Source of the DNA: Gammaproteobacteria bacterium
Lineage (GTDB): Bacteria; Pseudomonadota; Gammaproteobacteria; Thiohalospirales; Thiohalospiraceae
Length of the DNA stretch: 50,843 bases
Reading direction: 5' to 3'
Assembly (NCBI GenBank): GCA_015491735.1
Contig: WFVH01000067.1
Span: forward strand, 1 to 50,843
The notes beneath the pieces are model-generated. The model ran no database searches, had not been told where the DNA came from, and saw nothing but the letters and a program-made list of their open reading frames with translations. Made by a program: the position numbers and the translations under genes. Positions 5,458-10,716 of the stretch are shown here, piece after piece. The number at the start of each line of letters is the position of its first letter. The first letter of the stretch is position 1.

Positions 5458-6222
5458 TCAGGGCAGGCCCGGAAAGTTTGAACCTGTATCCGCGGTACTT
5501 GCCAACCTGCAAAACCCGGAAACTTTCGTTTCCAAGGGAGCGATCAACCTGATTTCCTGTATTGAAATGCTCGTTTGGTAAGCAATAATTTCAACGCCAC
5601 TTGCCACCGCCTCCCGCAGCATGCGGCCATATTCGGGGTCGATGTGATCAGCCGGACGAACGGCACGCACGTCTGCCCGTTGCACACAGAAAAACAGCAC
5701 CGCCCGGTTCCCCTGCTTCACCATCTCCATCAGTTCGTGCAGATGTTTGATACCACGAAGCGTCGGAGCATCGGGGAAAAAGGCAACAGCACCTTCAGCG
5801 GCCGTTACATTTTTTACTTCCACATAGCAGTTTGGGCGGTCCTCTTTTTCCAGCAACAGATCGATGCGGCTGCGCCCGGAACCGTAACTGACTTCGCTGC
5901 GGATGGCATCGTAACCCCCCAGCTCGGGTATCGCGCCGGTCTCGATCCCTTCCCGCACCAGGTGATTGCTCAACAGGGTATTGATCCCCACCTTCACTCC
6001 GCCGGCGGTTTCGCTGATCTCCCAGGACCAGGGGTATTTGCGCTTCGGGTTACCGCTGTCACGAATCCACACCCGGCTGCCCGGCTCGGCACACCCCAGC
6101 ATGGAGCCGGTATTGGGGGTATGTGCTGTGATCACCTCGCCGTCCGGAAGGCGCACATCGGCCAGAAAGCGTTTGTAGCGCCGGATCAGCTCCCCCTCCA
6201 CCAACGGTGTGGCAAATCGCAT
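5458..6222 (-). CDS. sfsA: DNA/RNA nuclease SfsA family protein
   Basis: SfsA homologue of 254 residues, first named as a sugar fermentation stimulation protein and now placed among nuclease-fold DNA-binding proteins. The N-terminal OB-like part shows RYKRFLADVRLPDG and HTPNTGSMLGC. The nuclease-fold core has GSGRSRIDLLLE and YVEVKNVT, whose Asp and E-x-K pattern fits a PD-(D/E)xK-like site. I choose the ATG at 6222, which matches the usual start and overlaps the relA stop as TGATG; an ATG five codons earlier is possible. The C-terminus carries about 20 residues more than the E. coli protein. Likely co-transcribed with relA. Confidence 0.93.
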   Translation of the reverse strand: MRFATPLVEGELIRRYKRFLADVRLPDGEVITAHTPNTGSMLGCAEPGSRVWIRDSGNPKRKYPWSWEISETAGGVKVGINTLLSNHLVREGIETGAIPELGGYDAIRSEVSYGSGRSRIDLLLEKEDRPNCYVEVKNVTAAEGAVAFFPDAPTLRGIKHLHELMEMVKQGNRAVLFFCVQRADVRAVRPADHIDPEYGRMLREAVASGVEIIAYQTSISIQEIRLIAPLETKVSGFCRLASTADTGSNFPGLP

Positions 6223-8417
6223 CAGCGCTGCCGCCATGCTTCCAGCACATTGGGCAGCTGGGCTATCCGGTTCAGCACCTTGCTAAGCTGGGCGGTATCG
6301 CGAATGCTGAGGGTCAGCTTCATGGTGGCGATACCCTGTTTCGGATCGGTGGCAGTGTTGACGGCCAGTACGTTGACCTCTTCCGCCGCCAGAATGGTGG
6401 TGACGTCCCGCAACAGTCCAGAGCGATCCACGGCCCGCAGATTGACGTCCACCTGATAGCTATCACCCGGCTCGGAACTGCGCCACTCCACCTCGATGAG
6501 CCGCGAACGCTTGTCGCTGTCCAGATTGAGGATGTTGGGACAGTCACGGCGGTGAATGCTGACCCCCCGGCCCAGGGTTATGTAGCCGATCACGGCGTCC
6601 CCCGGCACCGGCTTGCAGCAGCGGGCGATATGGGTCAGCAGATTACCGACACCGTGGATGCGGATATCACCGCCGCTCTGCTCCCGCACGCTGCGCGGCC
6701 GCTTCACCACTGGCGGTTGCCGCTCCTCCAGCGGCTGCAGACGATGCACCGCACCGGCGATCTGGGCGGTGGTCACCTCACCCCGGCCAATCGCCGCCAG
6801 CAGTTCGTCCTGCTCCTGAAATTTGAGTTCGGTCACCAGCGTGCCCATGTCCAGGCCAGCGGCGCCCAGGCGGCGCAGCTCCCGCTCCAGCGCCAGCTTC
6901 CCTTCGCTGATATGTTTCTCCTGATCCTGCTGTTTGAACCAGGTAAGAATCTTGGAGCGGGCCCGGGAGCTCTTTATGTAACCCAGCTGCGGATTGAGCC
7001 AGTCCCGGCTGGGCGCGCCATGGCGGGTGGTCATGATCTCCACCTGTTCACCGCTCTTCAGCTCGTAGGTCAGCGGCACGATCCGCCCGTCCACCTTGGC
7101 GCCGCGGCAGCGATGCCCCACTTCGGTATGCACCGCATAAGCAAAATCCAGCGGCGTCGCCCCCTGGGGCAGATCCAGAATATCCCCCTGGGGGGTCAGC
7201 ACGTAGACCCGATCCTCGAACAGCTCCGACTTGAAGCGGTCGATGAAGTCACCGGCGTCGTGAGACTCATCCTTCCACTCCAGCAGTTGGCGCAACCAGG
7301 CGATCTTCTGTTCGAAGCCGCCGTCACGCGCACCACCCCCCTCCTTGTAAACCCAGTGGGCCGCCACCCCCAGCTCGGCATGGCGGTGCATCTCATGGGT
7401 GCGGATCTGCACCTCCAGCGTCTTGCCCTGGGGTCCAATCACTGCTGTATGGATGGATTGATAGTGGTTCTCCTTGGGAGTGGCGATGTAGTCGTCGAAC
7501 TCACGGGGTATATGCCGCCACAGCGTGTGCACGACTCCCAGCGCGTGATAACAATCCGCCACTTCATTGACCAGAATGCGCACCGCCCGCAGATCGTAGA
7601 GCTGATCCAGCCCCACCCCCTTGCGCTGCATCTTGCGCCAGATGCTATAGATGTGCTTCGGACGGCCGGTCACCTCCGCCTCGATACCCGCCTCTTTCAG
7701 CGCCCCGGTGAGCCGGGCGATAACCTGTTCAATATACTGCTCCCGCTCCACCCGGCGCTCATCCAGGCTGCGCGCCAGCTTGCGGTAACTCTCCGGCTCC
7801 AGGTAGCGGAAGGCGAGATCCTCCAGCTCCCACTTGAGCTGCCAAATCCCCAGGCGATTGGCCAGCGGCGCATAGATCTCTTGCGTCTCACGGGCGATAC
7901 GACGCTGCTTTTCCGGCGGCAGGTGTTTCAGGGTACGCATATTATGCAGCCGATCCGCCAGCTTGATCAGCACCACCCGTACATCCTCCGCCATCGCCAG
8001 CAGCAGCTTGCGCAGGCTTTCGGCCTGATGTGCTCCGCTGCCCGAAACGGAGTGGATGAACTCGATCTTGGTCACCCCGTCCACCAGCCGGGCGATGGAG
8101 CTGCCGAACGCCTGCTCGATCATCTCCAGGGTAATCTCGGTATCCTCCACCGTATCGTGCAGCAGGGCCGCGGCGATAGTTTCATAGTCCAGCCGCAGAT
8201 CGACCAAAATGTCCGCCACCGCCAGCAGATGAAGCAGGTAGGGTTCACCGGAGGCACGCAACTGCCCGCCATGCGCCCGCTGCGCCATTTCACAGGCGCG
8301 ACGCAACACCGCCAGTGACTTCTCCGGATAATGCCCGGACAACGTGGCCAACCAGCCCTCCGTATCCGGCTCCACTGAGCCGACTGGAGTCTTCAGTCTG
8401 TTTTCAACATAAACCAT
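6222..8417 (-). CDS. relA: RelA/SpoT-family (p)ppGpp synthetase, RelA type with intact HD hydrolase motif
   Basis: 731-residue alarmone enzyme with HD hydrolase domain, synthetase domain, TGS domain (VYVLTPQGDILDLPQG) and C-terminal zinc-finger/ACT regulatory domains (GVSIHRRDCPN, then the terminal ACT). The synthetase region has EFDD at 306-309, the acidic signature of RelA rather than the RXKD of SpoT, so strong GTP/GDP pyrophosphokinase activity is expected in the stringent response. Unusually for a gammaproteobacterial RelA, the hydrolase residues are all kept: His63, His87-Asp88, Glu91-Asp92, Asp155 and Asn159. The usual NGYQSIHT reads NHYQSIHT (residues 317-324). The start is the ATG at 8417; no good ribosome binding site is seen. 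Confidence 0.93.
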   Translation of the reverse strand: MVYVENRLKTPVGSVEPDTEGWLATLSGHYPEKSLAVLRRACEMAQRAHGGQLRASGEPYLLHLLAVADILVDLRLDYETIAAALLHDTVEDTEITLEMIEQAFGSSIARLVDGVTKIEFIHSVSGSGAHQAESLRKLLLAMAEDVRVVLIKLADRLHNMRTLKHLPPEKQRRIARETQEIYAPLANRLGIWQLKWELEDLAFRYLEPESYRKLARSLDERRVEREQYIEQVIARLTGALKEAGIEAEVTGRPKHIYSIWRKMQRKGVGLDQLYDLRAVRILVNEVADCYHALGVVHTLWRHIPREFDDYIATPKENHYQSIHTAVIGPQGKTLEVQIRTHEMHRHAELGVAAHWVYKEGGGARDGGFEQKIAWLRQLLEWKDESHDAGDFIDRFKSELFEDRVYVLTPQGDILDLPQGATPLDFAYAVHTEVGHRCRGAKVDGRIVPLTYELKSGEQVEIMTTRHGAPSRDWLNPQLGYIKSSRARSKILTWFKQQDQEKHISEGKLALERELRRLGAAGLDMGTLVTELKFQEQDELLAAIGRGEVTTAQIAGAVHRLQPLEERQPPVVKRPRSVREQSGGDIRIHGVGNLLTHIARCCKPVPGDAVIGYITLGRGVSIHRRDCPNILNLDSDKRSRLIEVEWRSSEPGDSYQVDVNLRAVDRSGLLRDVTTILAAEEVNVLAVNTATDPKQGIATMKLTLSIRDTAQLSKVLNRIAQLPNVLEAWRQR

Positions 8418-8838: not shown

Positions 8839-10716
8839 ATGGCCAAAATTATTCCCGCACTAAACAGACGAACGCTTGCACGCATGACAGCGGGCGAAAA
8901 GCGTGTCGCACGTCGTCTCGAGGCGCTGCTGGAGGATGATTATCTGATTTGGTATGACATCCCCGTCGGTTCACAACGGCGCTACCCCGATTTCATTATT
9001 CTGCATCCGTCACGGGGTTTGCTGTTTCTCGAAGTCAAGGACTGGAAGCCCGATACCATTAAAAAAATGGACAAATCCACCGTAACCCTGCATACCGACA
9101 AAGGCATGGTGACAAAAACTCATCCACTCGAACAGGTCCGCCAGTGCACCTACGCCGTGCTTCAAAAACTGGAGCAGGATCCGCGGCTTTGCCAGATGAC
9201 AGGAAAGTACAGAGGCAATCTGGTTATGCCCTATGGATGGGGGGTGGTATTTACCAACATTACTCGCAATCAGGCGGAAAAAGCGCTCCCTGAGGGGATA
9301 CGGGAGAGCCTGCTGCCGGACCATCTCATCATCTATAAAAACGAGATAACTGAAAATGCAGATGCAGAGACATTCCAAACACAGTTATGGAACATGTTCC
9401 ATTATCAGTTTGGAAATCCACTCACTGTTCCGCAAATTGATCGAATACGCTGGCATCTGTTTCCGGAGATACGAATAGATGAAAACCCTCAGCAGGATCT
9501 GTTCAGCGATGGGGATGGCAGTACTCATCAATCGCAGCAGCGGTTACCGGACATTATCAAAATCATGGATATCCAACAGGAGCAGCTGGCGCGCAGCCTG
9601 GGAGAAGGACATCGTGTCATCCACGGCGTTGCGGGTTCAGGTAAAACCATGATACTGGGATACCGCTGTCTGTATCTCAGCCAGACCACAACCAAACCGA
9701 TACTGGTGCTCTGTTTCAATATAACCCTTGCAGCACAGCTAAAGTCATTTATCAGCTCAAGAGGGATTGGGGATCAGGTACAGGTTTATCATTTTCATGA
9801 CTGGTGCAACCAGCAGATAAAAACCTACCATGTGGAGTTGAAGCAGTCAGATAAACATGTTTACGAACGGAAGGTAGAGACCGTCATTGATGCCGTGGAA
9901 AAAAAGCGTATTCCAAGAGCACAGTACGGCGCTTTGCTAATTGATGAAGGGCATGATTTTGAAGCCGACTGGCTAAGGCTTGTTGTCCAGATGATTGACC
10001 CGGAAACCGACTCCATGTTACTTCTTTACGATGATGCGCAGTCTATTTATAAAAACCGCTCCGGTCTGGGTTTCAGCCTGTCCAGCGTTGGCGTGCAGGC
10101 AAAAGGAAGAACAACTGTTTTACGATTGAACTACCGCAACACCCGCGAAATATTGAGCTTTGCGTATGCCTTTGCCTGTCACTATTTTTCTCCACAAAAC
10201 ACCGATGACGATCATATCCCTCTCATCGAACCAGAAGCTGCAGGAAACAATGGTCCTGCCCCGGAAGTGCGGGTATTCAACACCTCCCGGGAGGAAATTG
10301 ACTACACATCGAAATGCTTGATCAAATGGCATGAGAGAGGCGTGCCATGGGGCGATATGGCAGTATTATGTGCAGCCTCCTGGCAGTGCAGGAGGATTGC
10401 CATACAGCTAAAAAAATCCGCGGTTCCCCACCTGCTGATAAATGACAAACAGAGCAAAAAAAGCTATAGCGCTTCCAAAGACCGGGTGACGATCTCAACT
10501 ATCCACAGCAGCAAGGGTCTGGAGTTTCCGAGAGTTATCATATCGAGTATCGGAAAAATGAAAGATCATGAAACGCATAACGCCCGCCTTCTTTATGTTG
10601 GCATGACAAGAGCCCAGCAATGTCTGCTACTTACCACCTCCACACATAACGAATTCAGCCGCAAGCTGATGAAGCTGTCGGCAACGGCCGCTTACCCTTG
10701 CGCAGCCTCTGGATAA
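8839..10716 (+). CDS. NERD-domain nuclease fused to UvrD-type helicase
   Basis: 625-residue protein joining an N-terminal NERD (nuclease-related) domain to a superfamily 1 helicase. The NERD part shows GEKRVARRL (Glu20), PDF (Asp51) and LEVKDW (Glu65, Lys67), an intact PD-(D/E)xK-like site. The helicase has Walker A GVAGSGKT at 263-270, Walker B LLIDEGHDF at 366-374, LRLNYRNTREIL, STIHSSKGLEF and LYVGMTRAQQ. It probably unwinds and cleaves DNA, in repair or in defence against foreign DNA; the sequence does not decide which. It stands alone, convergent with the WYL regulator gene. The start ATG at 8839 has only a weak ribosome binding site. Confidence 0.87.
   Translation: MAKIIPALNRRTLARMTAGEKRVARRLEALLEDDYLIWYDIPVGSQRRYPDFIILHPSRGLLFLEVKDWKPDTIKKMDKSTVTLHTDKGMVTKTHPLEQVRQCTYAVLQKLEQDPRLCQMTGKYRGNLVMPYGWGVVFTNITRNQAEKALPEGIRESLLPDHLIIYKNEITENADAETFQTQLWNMFHYQFGNPLTVPQIDRIRWHLFPEIRIDENPQQDLFSDGDGSTHQSQQRLPDIIKIMDIQQEQLARSLGEGHRVIHGVAGSGKTMILGYRCLYLSQTTTKPILVLCFNITLAAQLKSFISSRGIGDQVQVYHFHDWCNQQIKTYHVELKQSDKHVYERKVETVIDAVEKKRIPRAQYGALLIDEGHDFEADWLRLVVQMIDPETDSMLLLYDDAQSIYKNRSGLGFSLSSVGVQAKGRTTVLRLNYRNTREILSFAYAFACHYFSPQNTDDDHIPLIEPEAAGNNGPAPEVRVFNTSREEIDYTSKCLIKWHERGVPWGDMAVLCAASWQCRRIAIQLKKSAVPHLLINDKQSKKSYSASKDRVTISTIHSSKGLEFPRVIISSIGKMKDHETHNARLLYVGMTRAQQCLLLTTSTHNEFSRKLMKLSATAAYPCAASG

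Follow-up and report, generated by a model that had tools for sequence, protein, structure and literature searches.

A RelA-lineage alarmone enzyme with a complete hydrolase site, and its relation to Chloroflexota Rel

The relA gene and its hydrolase pocket

We examined a 50,843-nucleotide stretch of gammaproteobacterial DNA (contig WFVH01000067.1, positions 1–50,843; hereafter the window), in which positions 6222–8417 of the minus strand encode, from an ATG start, a 731-aa long RelA/SpoT homologue (RSH). Residue readings, Pfam, NCBIfam and trees place it in the RelA lineage with its hydrolase site intact. The HD (hydrolase) domain covers residues 41–192 (Pfam HD_4, 195 bits; 7842–8297, calculated from the residue numbers; this and all domains and motifs below lie on the minus strand). 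A preliminary description of this DNA had reported a complete hydrolase site, and the seven residues are indeed where it placed them, as read from the translation: His63 (codon 8229–8231), the metal-site histidine of the hydrolase in Rel and SpoT structures; His87, Asp88, Glu91 and Asp92 of the HDxxED motif (8142–8159); and Asp155 and Asn159 (7941–7955). It was also right that the well-studied RelAs have lost this site, the same positions reading RFPDAEH in Escherichia coli and TYRREEA in Pseudomonas aeruginosa.

The synthetase domain (Pfam RelA_SpoT, 147 bits; residues 251–360, 7338–7667) contains D275 and E335, both 100% conserved across all groups compared, together with an EFDD motif at residues 306–309 (7491–7502) and the sequence NHYQSIHT at residues 317–324 (7446–7469), the motifs again being read from the residues. 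The latter had been called unusual, but position 318 is variable among the 202 RelA rows of our alignment (G 82, N 53, M 13, L 12, D 12, H 11, R 8, and others). Pfam further identifies a TGS domain (residues 404–463, 7029–7208) and an ACT/RRM domain (Pfam ACT; residues 652–729, 6231–6464), and gives a weak match to RelA_AH_RIS. The protein exceeds the cut-off of the NCBIfam RelA equivalog NF008124 (800.2 bits vs 728) and falls below that of the SpoT model NF008303 (644.9 vs 947), so that its earlier identification as RelA holds on this score as well as in the trees described below. Over the catalytic part, an AlphaFold model (26 rows; mean predicted local distance difference test 77, predicted template modelling score 0.52) best matches the catalytic fragments of bifunctional Rel proteins (Staphylococcus aureus Rel, template modelling score 0.95 by target length, root mean square deviation 1.7); the model carries no information on activity.

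The protein shares with the RelA[hS] of E. coli and P. aeruginosa its clade, domain order, EFDD, synthetase residues and a score above the NF008124 cut-off, but all seven HD residues are present where RelA[hS] is degenerate, and we refer to the variant as RelA[HS]. It shares with the SpoT[HS] of Beta- and Gammaproteobacteria an intact HD site and the domain order, but SpoT carries RFKD (within RXKD), adjoins rpoZ and occupies another branch. The Rel[HS] proteins of Chloroflexota (Anaerolineae, Thermoflexus) are its nearest non-proteobacterial relatives and likewise combine EFDD with an intact HD domain; there, however, Rel is the sole long RSH, whereas the window's RelA stands beside a SpoT. 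The preliminary description had raised the question of a separate spoT, and one is present: the source genome (2.43 Mb, 101 contigs, completeness 100) contains exactly two genes with a RelA_SpoT domain, the second (L002) encoding a 740-aa SpoT with RFKD and an intact HD domain that passes the SpoT cut-off (984 vs 947) and lies, at locus L411, with rpoZ upstream and recG downstream.

Since the seven residues define which RelAs count as intact, their own conservation is no evidence, and the others lining the pocket were examined. For the loss counts, L022, whose N-terminus is cut off, and L248, which is broken and was set aside needlessly, were treated as unknown, leaving 200 of the 202 RelA rows scored. 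R54, S56, G57, E58, P59, Y60, T116, K117, K152, R156, H158, M160, R161 and T162 are each 90–100% conserved in the 62 intact RelAs, the level found in Chloroflexota Rel and SpoT, and most of them collapse in the 138 broken RelAs. Thus R54 is 98% conserved in intact RelAs and lost in broken ones, G57 falls from 98 to 43% and E58 from 90 to 31%; S56, T116 and T162 stand at 98%, and Y60, K117 and H158 at 97%, in the intact set. Mean entropy of the HD domain is 1.28 bits in the intact RelAs, 2.40 in the broken, 1.41 in 72 Chloroflexota Rels and 1.00 in 13 SpoTs, and that of the synthetase domain is similar in intact and broken RelAs (1.01 vs 1.30). The number of lost residues per row is two-peaked (none in 62 of the 202 rows, 1–3 in 8, 4–7 in 132). 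Within the window's genus, the ratio of nonsynonymous to synonymous substitution rates (dN/dS) in the HD domain is 0.08–0.16 in 20 of 21 pairs and 0.44 in the remaining pair, L088/L089, for which dS is 0.04. These comparisons support the view that selection still maintains the pocket and that a function, most simply hydrolysis, has been kept, although they do not amount to proof of hydrolysis. The loop between HD helices 6 and 7, whose greater length is linked to hydrolase-dead RelA in passages of Sinha et al. (2021; PMC8012599), did not serve as a marker of loss, with a median of 24 in intact and 23 in broken RelAs.

Distribution of the intact site

In an even sample of the class (240 genomes), all seven residues are intact in 43 of the 117 RelA genes read, from 27 families, and the site is broken in the other 74, from 61 families; f36, f102 and f110 hold both kinds (family codes are internal to the analysis tool). 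About 160 RelA genes are listed or implied in these genomes, and for most of those not read the alignment begins at residue 37 or beyond, so that 43 of 117 likely overestimates the share of the class. Hydrolase-intact RelA is nevertheless commoner than the preliminary description supposed, and the window's gene is one member of a set in the same state. All 43 HD-intact genomes in the class table show two long RSHs, none lacking the second. Intact RelAs also occur on single-contig chromosomes (e.g. G044, G117, G030, G082, G084 and G120), and bin contamination is therefore not the cause.

The best 80 nearest loci from 84,980 species' genomes comprise intact EFDD proteins in gammaproteobacterial metagenome-assembled genomes (MAGs) and in Chloroflexota, and broken EFDD proteins in other Gamma- and Betaproteobacteria. 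Among 30 relatives, the RelAs read from the window's own family are all intact except one, L091, to which we return below.

Some arrangements of other RelA genes were seen in passing. At L102 (G023:C6:13619-17866) an HD-broken relA-type gene and a spoT-type gene are adjacent on the same strand. Two genomes yielded only an HD-broken RelA and no second long RSH (L099 in G015; L101 in G027), possibly because contigs are missing, and the RelA of L101 has an in-frame TAA. In one non-gamma proteobacterial family, f163, which we take to be Zetaproteobacteria, an HD-broken EFDD RelA is found beside a Rel (L227, L229–L232, L241, L244, L245, L250–L253 and L256); this RelA nests inside the gammaproteobacterial RelAs, which makes a secondary transfer likely. 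Passages of a study of Acidithiobacillus (PMC6416229) describe SpoT as present and RelA as absent.

Tree placement, gene order and loss of the site

The preliminary description had taken EFDD to be specific to RelA. The motif is present in the window's protein as claimed, but it is found in 34 of 72 Chloroflexota Rel rows as well, with QFDD, AFDD or SFDD in 25 more. We built FastTree phylogenies of 275 rows (L102b left out) and of 367 rows, the latter adding Chloroflexota, Bacillota and single Actinomycetota, Fusobacteriota and Bacteroidota rows and rooted on the Bacteroidota row, L408; the HD domain and the EXDD columns were removed from both. In each, all RelAs (202 rows in the larger tree) form one clade within a grade of Chloroflexota, and SpoT groups with the Rels of alpha- and zetaproteobacteria. 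The hydrolase site is intact in 72 of 72 Chloroflexota rows, whose basal branches carry RFKD and whose later branches carry QFDD and EFDD. In the 367-row set xFDD, whose columns did not enter the tree, is confined to RelA and Chloroflexota.

An IQ-TREE analysis (LG+C20, posterior mean site frequency model) of 99 rows, picked by script from the 367 for diversity, with the same columns removed and L408 not used, gave a consistent placement. From the outermost node inward to RelA plus six Anaerolineae, support (bootstrap/Shimodaira–Hasegawa-like approximate likelihood ratio test) is 98/93, 91/95, 81/80, 100/97, 100/97, 100/92 and 99/92; the node joining RelA to six Anaerolineae has 99/92, that with seven Chloroflexota 100/92, with eight 100/97, with ten 100/97 and with 28 98/93. 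The RelA clade itself (33 rows) has 100/99 and contains the window's protein. Trees of single regions agree: RelA joins six Chloroflexota in the synthetase-only tree (83), five in the tree of the C-terminal domains (87) and Anaerolineae in the best HD-only tree (94/77).

By match pattern, each of the 24 genomes examined (23 Chloroflexota and one Limnochordaceae) has one full-length long RSH, four of them also showing additional synthetase matches that are short or odd; because it is the sole full-length long RSH there, the Chloroflexota EFDD Rel is presumably bifunctional. In three Chloroflexota genomes (G413, G422 and G431) two large synthetase-domain proteins lie about 3 kb apart, one of the domains being divergent. 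The long RSH of an Anaerolineae MAG (L045, JAHCIE010000186.1) has an HD domain that groups with gammaproteobacterial SpoT, rpoZ nearby and the remainder grouping with Chloroflexota and RelA, and may be either a chimera that exists in nature or a product of misassembly.

In gene order, rpoZ adjoins SpoT at 7 of 7 loci, zeta Rel at 15 of 15 and Rel of the alpha set at 13 of 16; it adjoins RelA at none of 159, zeta RelA at none of 5 and Chloroflexota Rel at 1 of 37, the odd L045. SpoT is thus the resident Rel, still where it has long been. The position of RelA away from rpoZ fits a transfer, and also fits a duplicate that has moved. In the window, relA overlaps by 16 bases the downstream sfsA (5458–6237, minus strand), a neighbour seen, among the loci compared for gene order, only here and at L148. 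Neither rlmD nor mazG adjoins the window's gene; as general relA context both were rejected, occurring beside 15 and 8 respectively of 99 HD-broken RelAs (L022 included) and beside none of 23 intact ones. Elsewhere in the window, positions 8839–10716 (plus strand) encode a 625-aa fusion of a NERD nuclease-related domain to a UvrD-like helicase.

When regain is forbidden, the FastTree topology requires 18 losses of hydrolysis, or 14, 10 and 7 when branches below 0.9, 0.95 and 0.99 respectively are collapsed. The preliminary description had proposed an intermediate between ancestral Rel and modern RelA. Part of this survives: an older RelA state fits the data, because the tree intersperses intact RelAs with broken ones and its closest outgroup contains intact proteins only. 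The ancestor, however, appears unlike a proteobacterial Rel duplicate, and a state shared by 27 of the families sampled is not rare.

Probable origin and putative activity of the hydrolase-intact RelA

We think it probable, with appreciable room for doubt, that the window's protein is a bifunctional RelA[HS] that retains the condition ancestral to the RelA lineage, which would derive from a Chloroflexota-like (Anaerolineae-like) donor, stand beside SpoT and have lost hydrolysis repeatedly. Like other RelAs, it would produce (p)ppGpp on the starved ribosome through its synthetase domain, here of the EFDD type; when off the ribosome it would remove the 3' pyrophosphate with an HD domain whose metal- and ppGpp-binding pocket is complete, alongside a normal SpoT. 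A bifunctional EFDD-type Rel would have moved laterally from the Anaerolineae-like donor into Beta- and Gammaproteobacteria, where SpoT, as the resident proteobacterial Rel, stayed beside rpoZ, and the pseudo-hydrolase domain seen in RelA of E. coli and Pseudomonas would have arisen later, many times.

A number of observations weigh against this reading, and we take them here with the rivals on which they bear. RelA and SpoT may instead be duplicates of a proteobacterial Rel, the HD site having been kept in deep RelA branches but lost in others, and the likeness to Chloroflexota being a tree artefact or the result of reverse transfer. Passages of Atkinson et al. (2011; PMC3153485), where RelA is classed as RelA[hS], attribute RelA and SpoT to a duplication that followed the divergence of the alpha lineage, and passages of Tamman et al. 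(2022; PMC9974481) also state a duplication, with RelA becoming synthetase-only relatively soon afterwards. In approximately unbiased (AU) tests, a tree joining all proteobacterial long RSHs with Chloroflexota left free is not rejected (p 0.193 and 0.121), and forcing Chloroflexota monophyly by itself is rejected at no better than p 0.044 (56.2 log units worse). The ultrafast bootstrap of the 99-row tree had not fully settled, and outgroup phyla are few, with Desulfobacterota, Acidobacteriota, Nitrospirota, Cyanobacteriota, Actinomycetota and Deinococcota absent or nearly so. By plain identity, the HD domain of the window's protein is closer to Azospirillum Rel than to Thermoflexus (63 vs 57%). 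The unrejected tree, however, simply pulls SpoT and Rel into Chloroflexota next to RelA, so that all of them sit inside that phylum. A RelA plus SpoT clade is rejected (93.6 log units worse, AU p 0.00138), as is plain duplication with the proteobacterial long RSHs and the Chloroflexota each held as a clade (85.9 log units worse, AU p 0.00295), and the confinement of xFDD and the absence of rpoZ beside RelA also count against a duplication, which we consider unlikely. The Chloroflexota origin is the bolder part of our reading and, by the trees, with their limited outgroups, the better supported part.

The intact pocket could also serve something other than hydrolysis, as an allosteric (p)ppGpp sensor or a structural element of an enzyme that is synthetase only. 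Passages of Sinha et al. (2021) report that the pseudo-hydrolase domain of E. coli RelA regulates synthesis, and the second long RSH of every HD-intact genome, SpoT always accompanying intact RelA, means that none of them depends on RelA for hydrolysis. In L091, from a genome of the window's own genus (G006), His63 is replaced by Tyr and the other six residues are kept; judged by this substitution, the hydrolase site is dispensable in that species, and loss may be in progress. A non-hydrolytic pocket seems to us improbable, to about the same degree as a duplication: metal and catalytic residues are retained along with the binding residues across 27 families, and a structural role needs no such residues, because 138 RelAs do without some or all of them. 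We give very little credence to the idea that recombination, with SpoT or a different Rel, restored the HD domain. This idea draws on the HD-only AU tests, which do not reject a grouping of RelA's HD domain with SpoT (p 0.10), with the Rels of alpha and zeta (0.28) or with SpoT and those Rels together (0.054), on the possible SpoT-HD chimera at L045 and on unweighted Fitch parsimony, which within RelA finds 13 changes and a 'broken' root. We discount that root because some 20 pocket residues could hardly have been regained again and again, and because the outgroup consists of intact proteins only; a broken root without any loss would demand 24 separate restorations. Moreover, intact RelA HD domains form one clade in the HD-only tree (100/95), with Anaerolineae as closest neighbours and SpoT elsewhere, and the window's HD domain is only 50% identical to that of its own SpoT, below the value for Thermoflexus.

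With somewhat less assurance than we attach to the bifunctional, Chloroflexota-derived RelA[HS] itself, we extend it to the group and favour the view that RelA of Beta-, Gamma- and Zetaproteobacteria is a foreign, bifunctional Chloroflexota-derived Rel placed beside the rpoZ-linked Rel (SpoT), that many living gammaproteobacteria still run two bifunctional alarmone enzymes that differ in origin, and that synthetase-only RelA evolved repeatedly, with 7 to 18 losses in our sample. We found no published hydrolase-intact RelA or Chloroflexota origin in search listings of the open-licence literature, subscription papers lying outside the search, which does not show that none exists.

Textbooks use RelA and SpoT as the example of a duplication with later division of labour, RelA being regarded as a synthetase devoid of hydrolase activity. 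The many site-complete RelAs shift where that specialisation happened. The families that hold both kinds, f36, f102 and f110, are natural before-and-after pairs, and the automatic name 'GTP diphosphokinase' conceals what is probably also a hydrolase. If the Chloroflexota origin is true, the two-enzyme stringent response of E. coli would have begun with the lateral transfer of a long RSH, an event judged rare in passages of Atkinson et al. (2011).

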